From Vampirovibrionales bacterium (GTDB lineage Bacteria > Cyanobacteriota > Vampirovibrionia > Vampirovibrionales > JAGQHJ01): 38,400 nt of DNA. The stretch's first letter is position 1. Each line of letters opens with the position of its first letter. This document shows, one piece after another, positions 13,737-38,396 of the stretch. The stretch lies in the NCBI GenBank assembly GCA_025449835.1, contig JANWIO010000160.1, positions 1 to 38,400 of the forward strand, given 5' to 3'. A program made the translations under genes and the position numbers. The notes beneath the pieces were generated by a model that saw only the letters and a program-made list of their open reading frames with translations, had not been told where the DNA came from and searched no databases.

Positions 13737-15830
13737 GTGGTTAGAAGTGCACCGCTTGAAAAAGTTAGAAATATTGGGATTGCGGCCCATATTGATGCCG
13801 GTAAAACAACAACGACTGAACGTATTTTATACTATACCGGCAAAGTTCACAAAATGGGCGAAGTCCATGAAGGGACTGCTGTAACCGACTGGATGGATCA
13901 AGAGCGGGAGCGCGGAATTACCATTACTTCTGCGGCAATTACCACGTTTTGGAAAGACCACCAGGTTAACATTATCGACACCCCAGGACACGTTGACTTT
14001 ACCATTGAAGTTGAACGTTCACTGCGGGTTTTAGATGGTGTTGTTGCCGTTTTTTGTGCCGTTGGCGGTGTTCAATCACAATCTGAAACCGTATGGCGCC
14101 AAGCAAATCGCTATAACGTTCCACGGATGGTCTTTGTCAACAAAATGGACCGTGTGGGTGCGAATTTCCCAAGAGTCCTTGATCAGATTAAAAACCGCCT
14201 CGGGGCAAATGCTCACCCCATTCAACTTCCTATGGGCAGCGAAGATGCCTTCTCAGGCATTATCGATCTGGTTGAGATGAAAGCCTATCTGTTCAAAAAC
14301 GATATTGGAACTGATGTAGAAGTAACCGATATCCCGGCTGAATATAAAGAAGCAGCTGATGCTGCACACACAAGCTTGCTTGAAGCCATTGTGGAAACCG
14401 ATGACGCCTTAATGGAAAAATTCTTTGAAGGTAGCGCCATCTCAGTAGACGAACTGAAAAAGGCCCTTCGAAAAGCCACATGCGAAGTTAAAATTGTCCC
14501 GGTAACGTGCGGAACCGCCTTTAAAAACAAAGGGGTTCAGTTACTCCTTGATGCGGTTATTGATTTATTGCCCTCTCCGCTTGATGTTCCTGCAATCCAA
14601 GGGCTTTTACCCGATGGGCAAAGTGCAGAACGCCACAGCAGTGACGAAGAACCTTTCTCAGCTCTGGCCTTTAAAATCATGACAGACCCTTATGTGGGCC
14701 GATTAACCTTTATTCGTGTTTACAGCGGAACATTGCAAGCCGGCAGTTATGTGAATAACACCACAAAAGGCAAAAAAGAGAGAATTAGCCGATTGGTCCA
14801 AATGCATGCAGACCAACGTAATGAAATTCAAGAAGTGCATGCGGGTGATATTTGTGCTGTTGTGGGCTTGAAAGATACCACCACCGGAGATACCCTTTCT
14901 AATGAGAATGCGCCCATTATCTTGGAATCCATTCACATTCCAACACCTGTTATCTCAATCGCCATTGAACCCAAAACCAAGGCTGATCAAGAAAAGCTGT
15001 CATTATCCTTAAACAAACTTGCCGAAGAAGATCCCACCTTCCAGGTTCGCCAAGATGAAGAAACGGCCCAAACCATTATTTCCGGGATGGGTGAGCTTCA
15101 CCTTGAAATTATTGTTGACCGGCTTTTACGGGAATTCAAGGTTCAAGCCAACGTGGGTAAACCCCAGGTTGCTTATCGAGAAAGCATTACCAAGGAAATT
15201 GAAATCGAAGGCAAATACATCCGTCAATCCGGTGGTAAAGGTCAATACGGTCACGTATGGCTACGCTTAACACCACAAGAGCGCGGTGCTGGTTATGTCT
15301 TTGAAAACAAAATCGTTGGTGGCTCCATCCCGAAAGAATATATCCCAGCAGTAAACAAAGGGATTGAAGAAGCGTCCCGCGGTGGCGTTATGGCTGGCTA
15401 TGAACTGATTGACTTTAAAGCAGCCTTGTTCGATGGCAGTTACCACGATGTTGACTCTAGCGAGATGGCCTTTAAAATTGCCGGCAGTATGGCATTAAAA
15501 GATGGTGTCAAACGAGCTGGCCCACAACTCCTTGAGCCCGTTATGAAAGTTGAAATTGAAGTTCCTGAAGAGTTTATCGGTGATGTCATCGGCGATCTCT
15601 CCAGCCGACGTGGCCGGGTAGAAGGTATGGAGCCCATTGAAGGAACCCAAACCCAACGGGTTCGAGCAATGGTCCCCTTGGCTGATATGTTCGGGTATGC
15701 AACGGATATCCGGAGTAAAACCCAAGGCCGTGGCACCTTCTCCATGGAGTTTGCACAGTATGAACCGATTCCCAGCAATATTGCTGAAACACTCATCAGT
15801 AAATTCCGGGGTCAAGAGGCTGCTGTATAA
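13737..15830 (+). CDS. fusA: Translation elongation factor G
   Basis: A 697-residue EF-G with all five domains at normal length. The GTPase motifs are [14 protein letters not shown] (about 17-30), the RGITITSAA switch, DTPGHVDF and NKMDR. Domain IV carries [14 protein letters not shown] and the C-terminal part ends with the domain V stretch [19 protein letters not shown]. It drives ribosomal translocation and, with RRF, recycling. The start is GTG with AGAGGA upstream. It is the third gene of the str-type operon, but the usual tuf gene does not follow. Instead an orphan gene with its own ribosome site begins 71 bases later. Confidence 0.98.
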
Positions 15831-15901
15831 ACCCCTCTTCTGATTGCGTCTCGAATTGCTTTATTCTAAACTTGTGAAAACAAGGTTTGGAGGTAAGTTT
15901 A

Positions 15902-16948
15902 TTGCAGCTTTCAGTCAAGGTAAGCAGTCAAAAACCATATTTTTACAGAAAATCCAAATACCCAGCAGGCGTCCAGCAAAGCACAGTTCGATTTGGGGAT
16001 ACCCCATTATTTAACTTTACCGATAAACTGACACCGCAAAACCGTCTTGCCTTACAAACCCAGATATTGGAAGCGGTTCAACAAGATCAGCTTGAAAAAG
16101 CTGCCGCCCTTTATGTACAGAATGTTCTGAATCGCCCCTCAATGGAAGCCCTTAAAAAAGATCCCAATGCCTTCAAAATCCGTAGCGATGCGGAAACGTG
16201 GTATACATTGCATGCATCATTATGGAAAGAAGCTTTTGGAACAGATCGGCCCAAAGAAAGCCTATTGAGCCAACTTACTTCAGGCAAATGGCGCTCAAAA
16301 AGAGATTTAAAAAGTGAACAGGACTGGGAAACAAAGGTCGAACTCCAGAAAAGGCTCCATCGGTATTTGTATAACGAGTTATTGCCTTCTGATTTGGGTC
16401 AAGAGGCAGTTACTGTGCTTCGTCAAATTCCATATTTACCCGTTATACAAGCCGCAAAACTGTATAAAAATACGTTTTTAGATATTAACCTTGATGAATA
16501 CCGAAATGATCCAACCATCCCCCCCCAATATGTGGAAAGTCGCGCTTTCTCTGGGTGGCTCTGCCAATGTGATGAGCTGGCTCGCTTTGTCCAGGACTTC
16601 GATGCAATTGCAGATGGCACGAGTTTTGCACACTCAAATGATCCCCTCTGTTTAAATGGTCCTCTACCAGTTTCCAATAGATTCTTACAAGAACTAGGGC
16701 CAACTCAGGTTGAACAACGGGATCCCTCCGTTCTGAAGTCTTGGCAAAAAGACTTGGAAAATTCTCGCTTGGTGGCTGAAAAAGTACTTTATCTCGCAGG
16801 GTCTTGGCATTATGACAAAATCCAGCATCAATTTCCCGATGAAGATTTTGTCCTCAAGTTTGAGCCTGATTTTATAACGCCCGCTCAACGCAAAGGCTTT
16901 ATGGAGAAGGTTGTTAAACATTTCCCAGGGGGTAACAACTCTGAATAA
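15902..16948 (+). CDS. Orphan protein with N-terminal VRFGD motif
   Basis: A 348-residue protein I do not recognise. The start is set at TTG 15902, with GGAGG (15889-15893) eight bases upstream. An in-frame TTG at 15887 precedes that site and is less likely. The first 28 residues are polar and basic, followed by VRFGD (residues 29-33, bases 15986-16000) and then a mostly helical, soluble-looking body rich in Leu, Gln, Lys and Asp. There is no signal peptide and no membrane span. It has no enzyme motif I can name. It lies directly after fusA and converges on another orphan with a matching LRFGD motif, 9 bases away. That it is a real gene is likely from the long frame and the ribosome site. Confidence 0.8.
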   Translation: MQLSVKVSSQKPYFYRKSKYPAGVQQSTVRFGDTPLFNFTDKLTPQNRLALQTQILEAVQQDQLEKAAALYVQNVLNRPSMEALKKDPNAFKIRSDAETWYTLHASLWKEAFGTDRPKESLLSQLTSGKWRSKRDLKSEQDWETKVELQKRLHRYLYNELLPSDLGQEAVTVLRQIPYLPVIQAAKLYKNTFLDINLDEYRNDPTIPPQYVESRAFSGWLCQCDELARFVQDFDAIADGTSFAHSNDPLCLNGPLPVSNRFLQELGPTQVEQRDPSVLKSWQKDLENSRLVAEKVLYLAGSWHYDKIQHQFPDEDFVLKFEPDFITPAQRKGFMEKVVKHFPGGNNSE

Positions 16949-16957
16949 CAGCAGCTC

Positions 16958-17818
16958 CTATTTGGATTTTGGGATGTTCAATAGACGATTGAGATGAAGA
17001 CGAATCTCAGAAACAACATCATTTGCATAGGCCTTTTTCAAGTCATGGGTCTGCACATCAAAGTAATGGCATAAAAACCAATCCTTCTTCTTATCAATGT
17101 ATTCCTTCAGGTCCGTCATCACTGCCTTTAATTGACGATTACCCTGCAACGCCTCTAACCGATCTGAAAAGCGAAACCAATTGAATTGTGCTTTTTGAAT
17201 CTCTTCCCGTTGCGGATTATATGGAATCTTTAAATCAGGATTACGCTGAGCCATAATTTTTCTCAATGCTTTCTGCGTTTGCTTGAGTTGCGGATCTCTA
17301 TAATCGAGTAAAGAAACAAGCTGAAGCTCAGGACCAGCATAATCAATGCATAGTGCAGCAAGCTCCATCAGATAATTGGTATTATGCTCTGAATTATGCT
17401 CTGAAGGAGCACCTGATGTCGGATCATTACAAATCAATAATATAATCAATTCATCACGAGAATGTTTATCCAGTTGGGCAATCGCTCTCACAAAGGGCTT
17501 ATAAAGTAACGCAAGATTTCTTGAATCCTCAATAAAATCTTTCCCTTCTTGCTGCTCAAAGTATTTTCCACACTCGATAATCACGTTATTTAAGGGTCTT
17601 AACAAACTATCCATTACATCACCTGGATCTTCAAGCTTATAAGGAACACTTCTAATAATTTCATTCAAATCCGATTGAAGATTAGCAGGCATGATAAAGT
17701 GCATTTGGTCTCCAAAGCGAAGCATATTCTCCTTCTTATGAAGCTGAATATGCTTTGAATTAAGAGAAGTAGCAGTTTTTTGTAAACGCAATCCCAACCC
17801 TGATTGGATAGACATCAT
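16958..17818 (-). CDS. Orphan protein with N-terminal LRFGD motif
   Basis: A 286-residue protein of unknown family. About 32 polar residues precede LRFGD (residues 33-37, bases 17708-17722), after which a helical, charged, soluble-looking protein follows. No signal peptide, membrane span, catalytic motif or repeat is evident. Two adjacent ATG codons start it (17818 and 17815), with AAGGGG rather far upstream. It converges with the neighbouring orphan, with nine bases between the stops. The two proteins share the motif and its placement but I see no clear similarity in their bodies. Function unknown. Confidence 0.78.
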   Translation of the reverse strand: MMSIQSGLGLRLQKTATSLNSKHIQLHKKENMLRFGDQMHFIMPANLQSDLNEIIRSVPYKLEDPGDVMDSLLRPLNNVIIECGKYFEQQEGKDFIEDSRNLALLYKPFVRAIAQLDKHSRDELIILLICNDPTSGAPSEHNSEHNTNYLMELAALCIDYAGPELQLVSLLDYRDPQLKQTQKALRKIMAQRNPDLKIPYNPQREEIQKAQFNWFRFSDRLEALQGNRQLKAVMTDLKEYIDKKKDWFLCHYFDVQTHDLKKAYANDVVSEIRLHLNRLLNIPKSK

Positions 17819-17994: not shown

Positions 17995-18031
17995 GGGAGC
18001 AAGTTGAATGGACGAAGCAAATGATATTTAA
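17995..18031 (+). promoter_or_regulatory. Leader ORF with ribosome site overlapping the pseB start
   Basis: GGGAG at 17995-17999 is ideally placed eight bases before an ATG at 18008 that opens a seven-codon frame (MDEANDI, TAA at 18029-18031). The pseB ATG at 18021 lies inside it in another frame. pseB has no good ribosome site of its own and no earlier in-frame start before a TAA at 17985-17987. Reinitiation or coupling is inferred. Confidence 0.4.
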
Positions 18032-19052
18032 AAAGAAAACAGTATTGATTACCGGAGGAACGGGTTCTTTTGGAAAAATATGTGCCCGTCATATCCTCGA
18101 TAACTATGATATTGCCAAACTAATTATTTTTAGCCGTGACGAACTTAAGCAGTATGAAATGGCCAGGGAGTTTTCAGATCCCCGAATTCGCTTTTTCATT
18201 GGGGATGTACGAGATGAAAAGCGTTTATCCATGGCATTTTCAGGAGTTGATATTATCATTCATGCGGCTGCCATGAAACAAATTCCAGCCTGTGAATATA
18301 ACCCATTTGAAGCCATTAAAACCAATGTCCTGGGGGCTCAAAATATTATTGAAACTGCCATTGCCCATAACGTAGAACGAGTGATTGCACTGAGTACAGA
18401 CAAAGCTGCAAACCCCATTAATCTTTATGGCGCAACAAAACTTTGCTCTGATAAATTGTTTACTGCCGCAAACTCTTATGTGGGTAAGGGCAAAAACACT
18501 CGTTTTAGTGTTGTTCGCTATGGCAATGTTATTGGCAGCCGTGGAAGCGTTATTCCCCTGTTTGAAAAGCTCCGAGAAACAGGAACAGTGACTGTAACAG
18601 ACCCAAGAATGACAAGATTTTGGATTACCCTGGATCAGGGGGTTCAGTTTGTTTGCGACAACCTTGAACTGATGCAGGGCGGCGAAATTTTTGTGCCCAA
18701 AATCCCCAGTATGAACATTATGGATCTGGTTAAAGCCATTGCGCCTAAGTGTAAGGTGGAAATTACCGGTATTCGTCCCGGGGAAAAACTCCATGAAGTT
18801 TTAATTACCCATGATGACTCCCGGTATACTCTAGAATATGAAAATCGATTTGTCATCGAGCCTCAAATCAGACATGTTCGATACAAAGCAATCCCTGGCG
18901 GTGAACGGGTGAAAGAGAATTTCTCTTACCGAAGCAATAATAACCCCGAGATTCTTTCTGTTCAGGACTTGAGGCGGTTAATTTACCCTGAGCATCCTGA
19001 AAATACACCCACAAAACCAACCGTTGCTTCCAAGAAGAAAGTTCATGCCTAA
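18021..19052 (+). CDS. pseB: UDP-GlcNAc 4,6-dehydratase (inverting), PseB
   Basis: A 343-residue short-chain dehydratase. The Rossmann NAD(P)-binding loop is GGTGSFG near the N-terminus (TVLITGGTGSFGK). Catalysis residues appear as STDKAANP and the YGATK motif (Y-x3-K). The HAAAMKQIPACEYNP and GSRGSVIPLF stretches are the wording of PseB/FlaA1-type enzymes. It converts UDP-GlcNAc to the 4-keto-6-deoxy-L-arabino sugar, the first step toward pseudaminic acid. The next gene, overlapping by eight bases, is the matching aminotransferase PseC. The remaining enzymes (PseH, PseG, PseI, PseF) are not in the window. The C-terminal 30 residues are low-complexity. Confidence 0.93.
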   Translation: MIFKKKTVLITGGTGSFGKICARHILDNYDIAKLIIFSRDELKQYEMAREFSDPRIRFFIGDVRDEKRLSMAFSGVDIIIHAAAMKQIPACEYNPFEAIKTNVLGAQNIIETAIAHNVERVIALSTDKAANPINLYGATKLCSDKLFTAANSYVGKGKNTRFSVVRYGNVIGSRGSVIPLFEKLRETGTVTVTDPRMTRFWITLDQGVQFVCDNLELMQGGEIFVPKIPSMNIMDLVKAIAPKCKVEITGIRPGEKLHEVLITHDDSRYTLEYENRFVIEPQIRHVRYKAIPGGERVKENFSYRSNNNPEILSVQDLRRLIYPEHPENTPTKPTVASKKKVHA

Positions 19053-20217
19053 TCAAACCGAATTTTCACCGACCCAGACCATCCCCTATGGCCGTCAAAC
19101 CATTGGTGATGAAGAAATCCAGGCCGTTATCGACGTTTTAAAATCGCCTTACATTACCCAAGGCCCCGCCATAGAAAAATTTGAACAAGCTGTGGCTGCA
19201 TATTGTGATGTCCCGTATGCGGTGGGATTCTGCAATGGTACCGCTGCACTTCACGGTGCATACTATGCTGCGGGCATTGGCCCAGGCGATGAAGTCATTA
19301 CCAGCTCCATCACATTTGTTGCAACATCCAATGCTGTTTTATATCAAGGTGGCAAACCCGTTTTTGCAGATATTTCTCCCAACTCGTGGAATATCAATCC
19401 CCAGGAAATTGCCTGCCGCATTACACCCAAAACAAAAGCCATTGCCCCAGTTCATTTTGCGGGCAGCCCTGTTGCACTCGACTCGATTTATCAACTGGCT
19501 GATGAACATCACCTCGTGGTGATTGAAGATGCCTGCCATGCCCTAGGCGCCCGCTACAAGAATACGCCGATTGGTCACTGCCGAGATATGGCTGTTTTCA
19601 GTTTTCATCCTGTAAAATCCATTACCACAGGTGAAGGGGGAATGGTGGTAACGCCGCATCGTCATTTCTATGAGAAGCTTTTAAAATTCAGAACCCATGG
19701 CATTACCAAAGACTCGCAACAATTTAAAGTGTTTGAAGACCAGCCCTGGCAATATGAGATGCAGGACCTCGGCTACAATTACCGGATGACCGATATCCAA
19801 GCGGCTATCGGCACTGTCCAGATGCAGAAACTGGATGGATTTATGGAACGTCGTTCCCAAATTGCCCAACGTTATCGAGAAGCTTTTCGAGATATTCCGG
19901 CCATTCAAACCCAGGAAGAAACGACGGGAGATGCATCCGCTAACCACTTATTCCCCATTTGGATTGATGTAACAAAAACGCCCATCAACCGTACTCAACT
20001 CTTTAAAGCGTTGCAAAATGCCAGAATTGCACCCCAGGTTCATTATATCCCTGTTCATTTGCAACCGTATTATCAGGAACATCTTCGCACCAAACAAGGT
20101 GATTTTCCCGAAGCAGAACGCTACCATGAATCCTGCTTAAGTTTGCCCATATACCCTACTTTGAGCCATGAAGAACAGGATTATGTCATCAAAACCATTA
20201 AAGCGTGTTTAAGTTAA
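19045..20217 (+). CDS. pseC: UDP-4-amino-4,6-dideoxy-N-acetyl-altrosamine transaminase, PseC
   Basis: A 390-residue PLP-dependent DegT/DnrJ/EryC1-family aminotransferase. It opens with IPYGRQTIGDEEI, has the GFCNGTAALH stretch, EDACHALGA and Lys191 in FSFHPVKSITTGEGG, the Schiff-base lysine in PseC's characteristic wording. It aminates the PseB product. I use ATG 19045, which overlaps pseB by eight bases and gives the family N-terminus. A TTG at 19024 is less likely. The 3' end overlaps the convergent adenosyltransferase gene by 20 bases. Confidence 0.93.
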   Translation: MPNQTEFSPTQTIPYGRQTIGDEEIQAVIDVLKSPYITQGPAIEKFEQAVAAYCDVPYAVGFCNGTAALHGAYYAAGIGPGDEVITSSITFVATSNAVLYQGGKPVFADISPNSWNINPQEIACRITPKTKAIAPVHFAGSPVALDSIYQLADEHHLVVIEDACHALGARYKNTPIGHCRDMAVFSFHPVKSITTGEGGMVVTPHRHFYEKLLKFRTHGITKDSQQFKVFEDQPWQYEMQDLGYNYRMTDIQAAIGTVQMQKLDGFMERRSQIAQRYREAFRDIPAIQTQEETTGDASANHLFPIWIDVTKTPINRTQLFKALQNARIAPQVHYIPVHLQPYYQEHLRTKQGDFPEAERYHESCLSLPIYPTLSHEEQDYVIKTIKACLS

Positions 20218-21123: not shown

Positions 21124-22080
21124 GTGGTGAGGATCGTTATAAACGTGTTGGGATTTGAGGGAAATATTTCGTCTTGGCAACCAAGCAGGGGGAGAGTCAT
21201 TCATGAAACTTCTTCTTCAAAACATCGGACTCTGTCCTTCGGAAAATTGGTTGAGCCAGAACGCCTCTCATCACCTGCTCCATCCTTAGAGTCTCTTGCG
21301 TCTCAAAAGACTTTCTCACAAAAAATGTTTACAAAACTCAAGCAATTTCCGCGAAAACTACTGAAAGTCACCTGGAAACCCATATTAGTCACAACAGTCG
21401 GCTGGTTAGGAATCTGGGGCGGCGGTCAATTGTATGATGGGGACGGAAAATTACCTGCTTTCAATAATATTGCAACACAATATGCCAAAGAAATTCACCA
21501 AAACACCACCACAAAATTCATCCAAGATAAAATCGCCTCCGAACAACCCATTTCAGATGAAGAAATCTGGCAACACATGCAACCAACCCTAAAACTTTTA
21601 AAAGCGCTTTCACCAGAAATTGCTCAATGGGTTGAAGACTTACATCAGGCAGGCAAAATTCGCTATACAAAGGAACACCCCGAAGGGAACTCGTGTGGAT
21701 TTGATCATATTTCAGGGGAACTCCATCTCCATAAAGTCTTTTTTACCTTGGATAAAGATGGCGAAAAAGCTGCAGAATTAGCCCATGAGTACCGACATGC
21801 CCGACAAAACAAGTGGAAAGTCGTGTCTCATTTTATATCCCCGCAACACCTTTATAATTATTGGGGCGAAAAGGCGGCAAAAAAAATAGGCAAAAAGGTT
21901 TCAACAGAGCAATGGATTTATGGCTCTCGCATTGAAGACGAAGCCCACTTATATGAAAAGCAAGCTTGCCAAGCAATGGGAATCTCATCATCAGGAGTAG
22001 ATCTTTACCTTACTGGCCGAGGTCTCTTCCAGTATCAACAAACAAACTCAGTTCTCCCGCCTAACAAAAACCAGCCCTGA
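21124..22080 (+). CDS. Membrane-anchored HEYRH putative metallopeptidase with LSFGK motif
   Basis: A protein of up to 318 residues. A polar N-terminal stretch of about 80 residues contains LSFGK (residues 37-41, bases 21232-21246). One hydrophobic helix follows at about 86-101 (PILVTTVGWLGIWGGG), then a soluble domain with HEYRH at 221-225 inside AAELAHEYRHARQNK, the HExxH zinc-protease pattern. A Glu-rich segment 40 residues later (RIEDEAHLYEKQA) could give the third ligand. The start is uncertain: GTG 21124, 21127 or 21145 or TTG 21148 are possible, none with a strong ribosome site. A start at an ATG near 21325 would delete the FG segment. Exact family unknown; peptidase activity is inferred from HExxH only. 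Confidence 0.75.
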   Translation: MVRIVINVLGFEGNISSWQPSRGRVIHETSSSKHRTLSFGKLVEPERLSSPAPSLESLASQKTFSQKMFTKLKQFPRKLLKVTWKPILVTTVGWLGIWGGGQLYDGDGKLPAFNNIATQYAKEIHQNTTTKFIQDKIASEQPISDEEIWQHMQPTLKLLKALSPEIAQWVEDLHQAGKIRYTKEHPEGNSCGFDHISGELHLHKVFFTLDKDGEKAAELAHEYRHARQNKWKVVSHFISPQHLYNYWGEKAAKKIGKKVSTEQWIYGSRIEDEAHLYEKQACQAMGISSSGVDLYLTGRGLFQYQQTNSVLPPNKNQP

Positions 22081-30334: not shown

Positions 30335-31159
30335 TTAGACGGAAAATCCAGAGGTGACCTGGATCAATTCGTCATGAAATTGGTTATTGGAGCCCACGAT
30401 GTTAATTCGACGCTGTGATAGATCCAGTTTTTCGCCAGCGAGCCCTGTTACTTTGCCACCTGCACATTGAATCATTAAAATCCCAGCGGCAACATCCCAT
30501 GGGGCAAGGCGAAGCTCCCAAAAACCATCCAGTCGTCCACAGGCCAAATACGCTAAATCTAAGGCGGCCGCCCCAGCCCGACGAATCCCATGAGTTAAGT
30601 TGAGAAACTGAGAATGCAAATCGATATTATTGTGCCGAGAATCCGAGGTTTTCAAATCATAGGGAAACCCAGTGGCCAAAAGTGCTTTTGAAAGAGAATC
30701 AATGGCGCTGACATGAATGGGAAGTCCATTTTTATGGACCTCACCAGACTCAATGGCCGTGAACATTTCATTTTTAAAGGGATCAAAAATGACCGCGGCT
30801 TTGGGCTCACCTTCCTCCACATAGGCAATAGAAACCGCAAATTGCGGAAACCCATGGGCATAGTTGGTGGTACCATCCAGAGGATCAATGACCCAGGTAT
30901 TGGATAAATCAATGGGTTGGCCTTCTTCAAAAGTTTCTTCCGTTACAATCTTATCTTCTGGGAATTCTTCCCTTAAAACTTCACGAATCAATTCATCGGA
31001 CTCGATATCAACCTGAGTTACCAAGTCCACATCGCTGGATTTGGTATTCACAGTTTGTTGCTGGCCATAATTGGCCATAATAATATGACCTGCCATTTGT
31101 GCAACACGACGGGCAGTTCGCAAGCGAGCATGCAGATTCGTTTTTCCAAGGGTTGGCAT
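30335..31159 (-). CDS. suhB: Inositol monophosphatase family protein, SuhB-like
   Basis: A 274-residue Mg-dependent phosphatase. The metal ligands sit in VTEETF (Glu), WVIDPLDGTTNYAHGFP (the IMPase signature with Asp residues) and WDVAAGILMIQCAGG (Asp). These enzymes dephosphorylate inositol-1-phosphate or related sugars; SuhB in enterobacteria also acts in rRNA antitermination. The ATG at 31159 has no clear ribosome site. It is divergent from dusB, with only 30 bases between the two starts, and the dusB promoter overlaps its start codon. Confidence 0.92.
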   Translation of the reverse strand: MPTLGKTNLHARLRTARRVAQMAGHIIMANYGQQQTVNTKSSDVDLVTQVDIESDELIREVLREEFPEDKIVTEETFEEGQPIDLSNTWVIDPLDGTTNYAHGFPQFAVSIAYVEEGEPKAAVIFDPFKNEMFTAIESGEVHKNGLPIHVSAIDSLSKALLATGFPYDLKTSDSRHNNIDLHSQFLNLTHGIRRAGAAALDLAYLACGRLDGFWELRLAPWDVAAGILMIQCAGGKVTGLAGEKLDLSQRRINIVGSNNQFHDELIQVTSGFSV

Positions 31160-32187: not shown

Positions 32188-33897
32188 TTATAACCGAGTA
32201 AAATTAGGTCGGCTAGCAGTATCCAGTTGGTATAATTTCTCGTATTTATTCCAGAGATAATTCAAAAAGTACTTTGGATTGAGATCTTCACCCGTTACTC
32301 GGCGGATAATGTCATTGGGGTCTTCCATTTTACCGTAGCGATGAATCTTTTCTTTTAACCAGCCCCGAAGATTTTTCAATTGCGTTTTATTTAAAGGTTT
32401 TTCCAAATCCAAACCCAATTCTGCTTGGGCTTTGTGGAAAAATTGGGCTGAATAGAGATTTCCCAAGGTGTACGTGGGGAAATATCCAAACAAGCCGCTC
32501 GACCAGTGAACGTCTTGAAAAGCACCTTCTGCAAGATTTTTAGGCGAAACCCCTAAATATTGCTGCATTTTTTGATTCCAGTGTTCGGGCAAATCCTTCA
32601 CATCAAGCTTCCCTTCAATCATATCTTTTTCCAGTTCAAACCGGGTGAGTACATGAAGGTTATACGTTACTTCATCAGCCTGAATACGGATTAAAGAGGG
32701 TGTTACTTTATTAAGCGCTTGATAAAACTGCTTTAAAGTAACATTTTTTAAGGCTTTTGGAAAAACTTTTTTAAAGACCGGCAAATATGTCGCCCAAAAC
32801 CCTTTGCTTCGGGCCACGATATTTTCCCACATCCGAGATTGAGACTCATGAATCCCCAAAGATGTCCCTGCTCCCAAAGGCGTTCCGGCTAACTTTGGCT
32901 CAATCCCTTGTTCGTAGAGGGCATGACCACCTTCATGAACTGATGAAAAGAAGCCATCAAAGAGATCGTTTGGGTTGATATTGGTCAGGATTCTGGCATC
33001 ATAGGGAGCACCAACGGAAACTTGGCAAGGATGGGTCGTAAAATCCTGACGTCCTGATTTAAAATCATAGCCGATATCCGTTAAAACCTTATTAATAACG
33101 GCGAGTTGTTTATCTTTACTATAATTTTTACGACGAAAAGCATCATCGACAGAAACAGGCGATGAATGGATTGCCTTAATTAAGGGAACTAGCCCAGCTT
33201 TTAACCCATCAAACACTATTTCAAGCTTTTCAGATGTCATGCCGGGTTCATACTCATTCAGCAAAGCATCATAAGGTGACTTTTTAAAGCCAAGGGCATG
33301 GGCTTTTTCTCGTTGTAAATCAACCATTTCCTGTAATTTCACAGCAAAGCCGTCAAAATTACCTTTCCCTTTTTTGGCTTTATTCCACAATAAATACCCT
33401 TCACTCTCTGTCTTGGCAATACGATGTACCAAATCCGCAGAAAGTGATTTTTCACTGTCATAATCTCGCTTTACCACTTTCACCATTTTTTGCGTCACCA
33501 AATCCAGAGACTTGAAGACGGCTGGGTCACTTAAGCCCTTCAAAACTTTCTCCGTCTTGGGCGAAACAAGGTTATCATGCTTCATCTGGGTTAAGGTTGC
33601 GACCTGGGTGGGACGGATATTTTCTGCATTCTCTGGCATATAGGAAGATTGATCCCACCCCATGAGCTCAAGAGCTGCTTCTAAACTGCTATCAACATCA
33701 GCAAAGTTTTTTAACGCCTTTAATAATGCATCTTTTTGTTGAAGTCCCATGTCCTGCCTCTTCTTTTTTGCACCAAACTGAACGGTTGTTTGCCGAATAA
33801 TTTGAGACTGCTTTCGAGAAATAGAAGCAGTCTGTGCCGAAAATAGGGGTGTTTTTCCTAAACTTGGCTTGAAAGGCAGATTGGTGTTCACGTTCAT
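32188..33897 (-). CDS. Carboxypeptidase Taq (peptidase M32) with N-terminal VQFGA leader
   Basis: A 569-residue zinc carboxypeptidase. The metal motif is HEGGH at about 321-325, with the third ligand in IHESQSRMWEN. HPCQVSVGAPYDARILTNI and the DVHWSSGLFGYFPTYTLGNLYSAQFF block are family signatures. It removes C-terminal residues from peptides, and M32 enzymes are normally cytosolic with about 500 residues. Here about 50 extra polar residues precede the first conserved helix and contain VQFGA (residues 39-43, bases 33769-33783). ATG 33897 is preferred over 33903 because GGGGAGG directly abuts the latter. It converges on dusB with five bases between stops. Confidence 0.92.
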   Translation of the reverse strand: MNVNTNLPFKPSLGKTPLFSAQTASISRKQSQIIRQTTVQFGAKKKRQDMGLQQKDALLKALKNFADVDSSLEAALELMGWDQSSYMPENAENIRPTQVATLTQMKHDNLVSPKTEKVLKGLSDPAVFKSLDLVTQKMVKVVKRDYDSEKSLSADLVHRIAKTESEGYLLWNKAKKGKGNFDGFAVKLQEMVDLQREKAHALGFKKSPYDALLNEYEPGMTSEKLEIVFDGLKAGLVPLIKAIHSSPVSVDDAFRRKNYSKDKQLAVINKVLTDIGYDFKSGRQDFTTHPCQVSVGAPYDARILTNINPNDLFDGFFSSVHEGGHALYEQGIEPKLAGTPLGAGTSLGIHESQSRMWENIVARSKGFWATYLPVFKKVFPKALKNVTLKQFYQALNKVTPSLIRIQADEVTYNLHVLTRFELEKDMIEGKLDVKDLPEHWNQKMQQYLGVSPKNLAEGAFQDVHWSSGLFGYFPTYTLGNLYSAQFFHKAQAELGLDLEKPLNKTQLKNLRGWLKEKIHRYGKMEDPNDIIRRVTGEDLNPKYFLNYLWNKYEKLYQLDTASRPNFTRL

Positions 33898-34212
33898 GGG
33901 CATCCTCCCCGGGGTGTCTCACTCACAACATAGCCTTACTTTTATGACAAAACCGATAACCAATCAAGTTAAATTGCAAATTTGAAACATTTTTATATCA
34001 AAATCCCTTCTAGAAGCCTACCTATTCTTATCCACATAGCCCAATTCAAGGGGGAAAGAATCCTAAAGCCATAAATATTGGCCAGTGGAGGGATTTTATC
34101 TCCCCAAACAACGGATATGCTCCAAAGTGCAATAACTTTTCCAACCATCATCGTCTTTAAGAATTGATGGCAAAAGCATTCTACTCAATGTAGCAAATTG
34201 GTAATCCCTGCA
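33898..34212. other. Intergenic region upstream of the small membrane protein (315 bp)
   Basis: Divergent region between the M32 gene and the next plus-strand gene. It is AT-rich, and I see no gene, no convincing promoter hexamer pair, no terminator and no tRNA-like fold. A TTGATG near 34164 could serve as a weak -35 box. Confidence 0.4.
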
Positions 34213-36983: not shown

Positions 36984-38396
36984 TTACAAAGAGGAGACAA
37001 GGCTTTGGAGTGACGATCTTAAATGTTGGGTCAGCGCTCGAATGGTTTCTTGTTTTTGAGATTCATACCCAGGCAACAGCGATGTTAAGGAAATGGGGGC
37101 GCCCACTTGAATTTTGGTTTTACGAGGCCCGATATCTGCCATCATCGACGATTCATTCTGAGTTAAAATAAAGTCTAGCTTAAACAACGTTTCTGCTAAG
37201 CGCTCTTGCGTCACGTGAGACGATAAATAATCGGTTGAAAATTTTTGAAACTCATATGCCGTATTTAAGCGAGGCTTATAAATCTGATCAAACCTTTTCT
37301 TGACACCCTCTGGCATACCCCCTGGCTGTATACGCTGAGAACGATAAAAATGCCGAATATTCTTAATTCGTAGGGCAAAGGAGGTATCCTTTTCAGCCGC
37401 CAGTCCAAAGGATTTTTCGACGGAGCCAATCAATGCCTCGGTTACCTGAAGATGTCGTTCTGACAAGTCGTTAGGCAAGGTTTTCAATAAATTCTGAGGT
37501 AAACCCTCCTGTTGAAGCATCTTGAGATACTCTTTTTCCAGGACTTTCATCCATAACGCTTCCACTCGTGGCGTTAAATTTTCCAGAGTCGGTTCAATCC
37601 CCGTTTTGTGAACTGAAATAGACAGCTGCGTTTCCAGGTTATCAATTATTTTTTGGAGTTGTTTTAAAGAAGGACGTTGAAAACGATGCTTAATACCAAT
37701 GGGGAAGATAACAACATCTTCCAGTTGCTTCATATTGCCTTGCTGATATTGCTTTTTAAGTTCAGATGCGGCTTTTAAACCAAGGGCAACCGTACCATAC
37801 TGCATTTCACTCACTTGGTCATTTTGCCAGCTATAATGCCCCTCAGGGAAAATGATCAAGGGATATTTGCCTTCTTTCACCACATCAATACTCGCCTTCA
37901 TAGCCCCATGATCTTTCACATCAGAGTGAACGGGAAAAAGACCAAAATGACTTAAAAGCCAGTTCATAATGGGTTGGCCATATTTCTTGGCCAACCGAGG
38001 ACTTCGTATCGCATGGAAAAGCCCCACCTGCCCCATCACCGCACCAGGCTGCTTAGACGCAACAGATATCAGTGGAACCATATAAACATCCCCAAAACCA
38101 GGATGGTTGGGGGCTAAAATGACATGCTTCTTCTCTTGTAAAGCCTTCCGAATTTGTTCAGCGCCCTGAATATGAATGTGGGCAATTCGCTCATTAAACC
38201 GTAAATGCCACTGAACATAACATTTTGCAATCCAGAGAATGAGCTTATTGGGCCTTGGCGGAAGGGTCAAAGCGGGTAGATCCATCTGGTCTCCCCGCAG
38301 ATCAACAGCACCAAACCGTGGAACAGCTTGTTTTAAATAATTTTGTGTATGCCGAATGTGCTTCGGACTCGTTGTTGACTGAATTGTAAAGGGCAT
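36984..38396 (-). CDS. PlsC-type acyltransferase with N-terminal PRFGA leader (start near window edge)
   Basis: A 470-residue protein with a 1-acyl-glycerol-3-phosphate acyltransferase domain. The HX4D motif is NHPGFGD, the glycerol-phosphate stretch is FPVHSD, motif III is IIFPEGHYSW and motif IV is VVIFPIGIKHRF. It probably acylates a lipid or lipid-like acceptor at the inner membrane. About 240 residues follow the catalytic core, longer than simple PlsC. The leader contains PRFGA at 26-30 (bases 38307-38321) before the first conserved region. An ATG lies at 38396, but only four bases of upstream sequence remain, so an earlier start outside the window cannot be ruled out. No signal peptide is visible. 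Confidence 0.82.
   Translation of the reverse strand: MPFTIQSTTSPKHIRHTQNYLKQAVPRFGAVDLRGDQMDLPALTLPPRPNKLILWIAKCYVQWHLRFNERIAHIHIQGAEQIRKALQEKKHVILAPNHPGFGDVYMVPLISVASKQPGAVMGQVGLFHAIRSPRLAKKYGQPIMNWLLSHFGLFPVHSDVKDHGAMKASIDVVKEGKYPLIIFPEGHYSWQNDQVSEMQYGTVALGLKAASELKKQYQQGNMKQLEDVVIFPIGIKHRFQRPSLKQLQKIIDNLETQLSISVHKTGIEPTLENLTPRVEALWMKVLEKEYLKMLQQEGLPQNLLKTLPNDLSERHLQVTEALIGSVEKSFGLAAEKDTSFALRIKNIRHFYRSQRIQPGGMPEGVKKRFDQIYKPRLNTAYEFQKFSTDYLSSHVTQERLAETLFKLDFILTQNESSMMADIGPRKTKIQVGAPISLTSLLPGYESQKQETIRALTQHLRSSLQSLVSSL

Follow-up and report, generated by a model that had tools for sequence, protein, structure and literature searches.

Two neighbouring orphan proteins of a Vampirovibrionales bacterium share the end of an N-terminal leader that recurs throughout their genome

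The window, by which we mean the whole stretch of 38,400 nucleotides analysed here, holds a pair of converging genes whose products resemble no recognised family. Orphan protein 1 (ORF 1; 15902-16948, forward strand, 348 residues) and orphan protein 2 (ORF 2; 16958-17818, reverse strand, 286 residues from an ATG start) lie tail to tail and are separated by the nine bases 16949-16957, as the preliminary description had stated. The mechanical frame of ORF 1 opens at TTG 15887, but TTG 15902 is the better and most likely start because it is preceded at a distance of 7 bases by GGAGGT (15889-15894). Numbered from there, ORF 1 begins with a leader, MQLSVKVSSQKPYFYRKSKYPAGVQQST (15902-15985, forward strand), which contains no acidic residue and is followed by the tag VRFGD (15986-16000; residues 29-33), with a PSSM score of 17.8 bits. 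ORF 2 begins with a leader containing one acidic residue (17723-17818, reverse strand), followed by LRFGD (17708-17722; residues 33-37; 13.7 bits), so that both motifs were found at the residues first reported. The tag is encoded by GTT CGA TTT GGG GAT in ORF 1 and by CTT CGC TTT GGA GAC in ORF 2, and because these codons differ, the RFGD match is one at the protein level. Structure predictions made without an alignment gave a mean pLDDT of 37.8 for ORF 1 and 49.7 for ORF 2; behind its leader and tag, protein 1 has a body that is predicted to be mostly helical in this low-confidence model. The gene directly upstream of ORF 1 (13737-15830) reads by eye as elongation factor G. Orphan 1 thus stands directly behind an EF-G gene (window 15830-15902), the slot that the EF-Tu gene occupies in many bacteria.

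Searches against Pfam and NCBIfam profiles returned no family at E <= 1 for either ORF, which bears out the description of both proteins as unrecognised and leaves neither body with a match to a well-known family. The bodies also lacked a mutual match, the best BLASTP piece having an E value of 0.074. Persistence of the tag in orthologues had been proposed as a check; no orthologue of ORF 1 or ORF 2 was detected at E <= 0.001 among 17 other genomes of the order, and the sole relative found was a distant paralogue of ORF 2 on contig 6 of the same genome (33% identity over residues 34-171; 42 of 135 residues, or 31%, identical in a second alignment). The paralogue carries VTFAG, at most one residue away from the LRFGD position in the alignment. 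Judged from this comparison, ORF 2 and its paralogue retain the tag although their leaders differ.

The tag is genome-wide and not particular to this pair, and it is as part of this wider pattern that the match between the two proteins exceeds chance. The genome is a 91.9% complete draft of 2.90 Mb in 167 contigs, from which we sampled 571 kb (stretches of the first 40 of the 167 contigs plus the window) and called 433 non-overlapping mechanical ORFs of at least 120 residues. The strict motif [VILP]RF[GSA], which was picked after examples had been seen, occurred within residues 11-65 of 28 of the 433 ORFs, compared with 2 of 1144 equal-length internal windows taken as controls from the same genome (odds ratio 39.5, p = 2e-14); leaving out ORF 1 and ORF 2, it was present in 26 of 431. 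A broad form of the motif was found in 53 of 433 ORFs, compared with 22 of 1144 background windows. In the genome as a whole, more than a hundred proteins seem to open with an acid-poor leader of this kind. Twenty-six of the 28 strict leaders passed a filter requiring no hydrophobic segment and at most two acidic residues, the other two failing through acidic residues, and the reversed motif under the same filter gave no ORF at all. With a trained PSSM, 69 of 433 ORFs scored above 8 bits, compared with 26 of 1309 internal windows, a difference that is overstated, since these N-termini were the training set. The dipeptide FG, counted in the 227 ORFs of the first sample half, peaked at residues 31-40 (22 of 2270 positions, or 9.7 per 1000), compared with 0.8-4.9 per 1000 per bin elsewhere up to residue 300. 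Enrichment extended to [VILP]KF[GSA] (8/433 vs 2/1144), and no N-terminal enrichment of RYG, [VILP]RL[GSA], [VILP]RW[GSA] or GFR was detected in the 433-ORF sample. All starts in this sample are mechanical; of the 28 strict-tagged ORFs, 17 open at an ATG and 17 show a Shine-Dalgarno-like sequence, as against 192 of 377 untagged ORFs. One of the 28, at window position 31055, was judged to combine a wrong start with a chance match.

The strict leaders average 31 residues, mostly 20-40, and the Phe of the tag falls at residues 22-40 in 25 of the 28 proteins (mechanical starts). Aspartate and glutamate make up 3.1% of the leader, compared with 8.6% of untagged N-termini and 11.0% of bodies, and rebound to 11.3% in the 30 residues behind the tag. 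Serine (12.8% vs 8.0%), proline (8.4% vs 5.8%) and lysine (9.3% vs 6.2%) are all more frequent in the leader than in untagged N-termini, and Ile or Val occupies residue 3 of 10 of the 28 strict-tagged proteins compared with 56 of 377 untagged ones. A motif acting in RNA or DNA was rejected as an explanation: the tag Phe is encoded by TTT in 28 of 28 cases, but TTT accounts for 82% of all Phe codons (87-91% of those after Arg or before Gly) and its dominance makes this no evidence. The codons for the tag Arg and for Gly, Ser or Ala vary, and selection therefore acts on the protein.

The preliminary description had taken the common RFGD core to suggest that the neighbours share a handling pathway and possibly have related functions. 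The former interpretation gains support, as the tag closes a leader present on many proteins of the genome, whereas the latter is not supported. Of 355 neighbour pairs, 14 had the broad motif in both members, compared with an expectation of 5.9; outside three tandem arrays the count was 5 of 316 (ORF 1 and ORF 2 included), against 3.0 expected. With bodies that are unrelated and adjacency outside arrays that is close to the expectation from tag frequency, we rejected a relation specific to this pair. The arrays themselves consist of tagged, mostly unrecognised ORFs in tandem at L064:4868-11110 (contig 35), L056:1236-7451 (contig 27) and L014:190-5335 (contig 11), and the broad tag is borne by 4 ORFs of the contig 11 array, 7 of the contig 27 array and 7 of the contig 35 array. 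Some array ORFs have a hydrophobic segment behind the tag, and one on contig 11 consists of ankyrin repeats.

Further tagged proteins are encoded in the window. An acyltransferase-domain protein (36984-38396, reverse strand) has VPRFGA at residues 25-30; its frame runs to the window end and it stands outside the 433-ORF count. An M32 carboxypeptidase (32188-33903, reverse strand) has an N-terminal extension of about 58 residues with VQFGA at residues 41-45. On the forward strand, an orphan at 21124-22080 carries the weak tag TLSFGK (Phe at residue 39; 6.8 bits), and a 5'-nucleotidase-type protein (445-2028) has a weak NFGG at residues 10-13, outside the strict motif; no hydrophobic signal was seen by eye in the first 40 residues of the latter.

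The carboxypeptidase allowed a comparison of enzyme copies with and without a leader. Its HExxH lies at residue 322, compared with a median of 264 in 71 named M32 relatives (80 loci were taken, 9 of which had no usable ORF), and the strict tag was found in none of the 71 and the broad tag in one. The same genome encodes a second M32 copy on contig 90, in which GGGAGG precedes an ATG (MNELTSL); counted from there, HExxH comes 266 residues in and there would be no extension. The genome thus likely has one tagged and one untagged copy, a contrast that hinges on the start site because a longer mechanical ORF would contain PLFGK (9.1 bits). The three weakest of the M32 matches from the class show VSFKS, VSFKS and QSFGL near the N-terminus, and the three better ones (two in G113, one in G094) lack a tag of strict form. 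Two M18 aminopeptidases of the genome, 57% identical, carry VRFSGQ and LLRFSGE; their relative in the order genome G010 (50%) carries the related VYFSGH, which is without Arg and obtains no tag score from the PSSM. To the extent that these alignments show it, the tag outlasts the leader: relatives hold the tag while their leaders diverge. Deoxyribose-phosphate aldolase was matched in 73 of 77 class genomes, in none of which the match starts before query residue 35, leaving the leader unaligned. The frames in family f4 are mostly 216-235 residues long, with no room for a leader; several relatives in the order measure 262-310 residues, which gives room for one, and these longer proteins may carry leaders too.

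We next consider which proteins bear the leader. A Pfam family was assigned to 14 of 36 tagged proteins selected by hand (E <= 0.01; E <= 1 for ORF 1 and ORF 2), compared with 18 of 20 untagged ORFs drawn at random among those with 180 or more residues and held to the stricter threshold of E <= 0.0001 (p = 2e-4), some of the scanned tagged proteins being shorter than the controls. The tagged set is thus rich in orphans. The tagged hydrolases assigned to Pfam families were M32, M18, trypsin-like, RNase_T, PLD, GDPD and 5'-nucleotidase, and the other families were acyltransferase, DeoC, nucleotidyltransferase, PALP, amine oxidase and two ankyrin proteins; the tags of the 5'-nucleotidase, the GDPD protein and the orphan at 21124 are weak or outside the strict motif. 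In NCBIfam, the nucleotidyltransferase came nearest to NadD and the trypsin-like protein nearest to HtrA, both below cut-off, and DeoC (deoxyribose-phosphate aldolase) scored above it. No flagellar or effector family was found among the tagged proteins scanned.

We examined how far the tag extends among relatives. In the same family, the strict motif was enriched in G002 (5/56 vs 1/139, p = 0.008) and not significantly so in G001 (4/94 vs 3/254, p = 0.09), both samples being small. There was no significant enrichment in the sampled G004, G012 and G013 (families f2 and f3) or in the photosynthetic G019. In G029, from another family of the class, it occurred in 4 of 283 ORFs vs 1 of 759 (p = 0.02), just one of which passes the leader filter. 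A looser class-wide motif, [VIL]xF[GSAKT][GSA], was tried in G029 and rejected (12/283 vs 20/759, p = 0.13; forward 7, reversed 5). Single G029 proteins appear leader-like. Whole genomes were scanned with a nucleotide pattern (ATG-A..-[IV], then the RFG codon pattern 36-66 bases on) and with a backward control: the genome under study gave 16 matches vs 2 backward, and of the other genomes some likewise surpassed their controls (G013, 21 vs 6) and some did not (G004, 8 vs 8). In the 16 genomes whose matches were listed (G016 and G017 left out), the matches were in frame in 24 of 47 cases (22 open) in the genome's own family f1, in 4 of 23 (4 open) in f2 and in 20 of 80 (15 open) in f3, so that f1 alone exceeds the one-third expected to be in frame (p = 0.009). 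Several genomes of the order contained leaders that lack acidic residues, close with RFG and are in frame and open. As to photosynthesis, photosystem II reaction centre proteins were found in 20 of 59 genomes drawn from the phylum and were absent from the genome under study, the 20 other class members drawn and 18 further genomes of the phylum. From this we take the class to be a non-photosynthetic one of Cyanobacteriota, probably Vampirovibrionia.

The leader resembles several known N-terminal signals without coinciding with any of them. Organelle presequences are basic, acid-poor and hydroxyl-rich, measure 20-60 residues, contain a semi-conserved Arg/aromatic element and are set on an ordinary enzyme body. 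The RFG leader is like them in these respects, but it is bacterial, and an import receptor, a processing peptidase and cleavage would be hypothetical in its case. It shares with Sec signal peptides the nature of an N-terminal extension missing from cytosolic homologues; unlike Sec and Tat signal peptides, it has no hydrophobic core. Double-glycine leaders have Gly-Gly, Gly-Ala or Gly-Ser before the cut. These and prepilin leaders are, like the RFG leader, short with a Gly near the end; in the RFG leader, however, the residue behind Phe-Gly varies (D, E, Q, S, A and others). It is Asp in both window proteins, neither of which has a hydrophobic helix after the site.

Delivery of hydrolases by a type IV secretion system (T4SS) has been proposed for one species, Vampirovibrio chlorellavorus (PMC4451040). 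The cargo described here resembles that proposed there in being hydrolytic and in coming from a related lineage, and differs in that VirB4 was not found: the 91.9% complete draft gave no match, and 2 of 18 order genomes have VirB4, namely G017 and G013, the sample of G013 being tag-poor. A contractile sheath gene was likewise not found in the draft and is present in 3 of 18 order genomes. Cargo of a T4SS or of a contractile injection system was therefore rejected as an explanation, the machinery not having been found in this draft genome. The three VirB4-family matches of G013, on C1, C2 and C13, would fit a Vampirovibrio chlorellavorus-like genome with conjugative plasmids.

Given what is shown above (a motif enriched at a set position, the make-up of the leader, a cargo rich in orphans and the retention of the tag amid leader divergence), we favour, with slightly less than even confidence, the reading that the RFG leader is a genome-wide sorting leader, read by a receptor and most likely serving Sec-independent export. 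The leader resembles a targeting signal in that it is variable, N-terminal and non-hydrophobic, has a short conserved end, stands before unrelated bodies and is present on probably one of two enzyme copies. The RFGD shared by ORF 1 and ORF 2 would then be the end of a leader used throughout their genome. A common receptor would read this leader and sort a particular set of cargo, comprising lineage-specific orphans, ankyrin proteins, tandem small-protein families, peptidases and enzymes that degrade lipids or nucleotides. Their destination would be somewhere other than the free cytosol, most likely outside the cell and reached without Sec, where they may act as digestive or interaction proteins; we infer receptor recognition, export and route, and consider Sec-independent export the most likely destination because the cargo consists of orphans, ankyrin proteins and hydrolases. 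Tagged proteins of cytosolic or metabolic look, the NadD-like protein (below NCBIfam cut-offs) and deoxyribose-phosphate aldolase, count against this reading, as do the failure to find VirB4 and a contractile sheath in this draft, the results for F+4 and for residues 3-4 given below, and the lack of strict-tag enrichment in the sampled f2 and f3 genomes despite the FHIPEP export gate in all 18 genomes of the order.

The same metabolic enzymes make an internal destination conceivable. The leader could be a tag for localisation or assembly inside the cell, a short linear motif through which cargo would dock to a scaffold, to a compartment or at the membrane, with no export at all; the NadD-like protein and DeoC carry the leader, docking motifs also are short with a variable linker, and no fitting export machine was found. 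We nevertheless regard this as unlikely, given that the cargo contains ankyrin proteins, tandem orphan arrays and families such as 5'-nucleotidase and HtrA-like trypsin, which are usually located outside the cytosol. Another account is export through a flagellar-type gate, with the leader as a type III N-terminal signal read by one of two gates. FHIPEP was matched in 18 of 18 order genomes, in 16 of them as two full-length copies, so that there may be a second, diverged flagellar-type export system order-wide. The two full-length copies of the present genome lie on contig 14 (L017:17391-19999) and contig 153 (24996-26969), and the second adjoins a FliI/SctN-family ATPase; the portion of it that was covered is closer in score to FlhA than to SctV, which counts against this account. 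The leader is like type III signals in being N-terminal, acid-poor, to some extent Ser-enriched, variable and attached to unrelated bodies in a genome with export gates. It is unlike them in its defined [VILP]RF[GSA] end, without a hydrophobic residue at F+4 and without an excess of aliphatic residues or Pro at positions 3-4.

These features were compared with the signal rules for P. syringae effectors (PMC3338616: acid-free first 12 residues, Ser above 10%, aliphatic residue or Pro at 3-4). The first 12 residues were free of acid in 23 of 28 strict-tagged proteins vs 136 of 330 untagged ones without a hydrophobic N-terminus, in keeping with type III signals, and Ser exceeded 10% of the first 50 in 11 of 28 vs 61 of 330 (p = 0.012), an enrichment that concerns a minority. 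An aliphatic residue or Pro at 3-4 was no commoner in tagged proteins (16/28 vs 183/330, p = 0.51), and all three rules held for just 5 of 28, compared with 19 of 330 (p = 0.03). In early flagellar subunits, the motif recognised by the export gate generally comprises a Phe and a hydrophobic residue at F+4. In FlgD, whose signal has two parts, the motif is FLTLL (PMC8983047). A hydrophobic residue at F+4 was found in 4 of 28 tags, compared with 282 of 929 other Phe at residues 11-63, and since it is rarer in tags, the tag is not the gate recognition motif. As the tag-poor sampled genomes possess gates as well, we hold a type III signal to be a distinctly unlikely account. The tag could instead mark a propeptide, a protease cutting close to R-F-[GSA] and thereby maturing or regulating the protein wherever it acts: a sharp Arg-Phe-small consensus ends an acid-poor stretch (3.1% Asp+Glu, then 11.3%), and an acid-poor stretch so closed resembles the processing sites of organelle presequences. 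Yet cleavage is hypothetical, three of the 28 tags lie deep (Phe at residues 51-62) and those of L056:1236-2252 and L056:2256-3302 look doubled, and we find processing improbable. That the RFGD match is a mere coincidence between unrelated neighbours draws on the lack of kinship between the bodies and the ease with which short motifs recur; against 28 of 433 vs 2 of 1144, 26 forward vs 0 reversed, and diverged paralogues that keep the tag, it is hardly credible.

Returning to the sorting leader, no description of such a leader was found, by title or abstract opening, in the open-licence PubMed Central literature, and it has the appearance of an address label, so far undescribed, borne by a particular group of proteins. 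It is conceivable, if somewhat unlikely, that a dedicated sorting pathway exists in Vampirovibrionia, or in one family of them at least, in which a transit-peptide-like R-F-[GSA] leader directs proteins to a Sec-independent destination, possibly prey or host. Should this hold, and with the same reserve for the whole, the strict motif (28/433) would put about 6% of the proteome under this leader and the broad motif (53/433) roughly a tenth, and the cargo would include digestive hydrolases and orphan families. Such a label in the sequence would allow the cargo of a pathway to be listed from genomes alone, could be tested by one reporter fusion, and would group many lineage orphans by destination instead of fold.

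Two further loci were noted. The product of L019:14374-16758 has Pfam Cas3 domains and is a nuclease/helicase of Cas3 type, so that the genome may possess a type I CRISPR system. In the window, a sugar-nucleotide dehydratase-like ORF is followed by an aminotransferase-like ORF (18021-20217), which we take to be reminiscent of a nonulosonic acid pathway.
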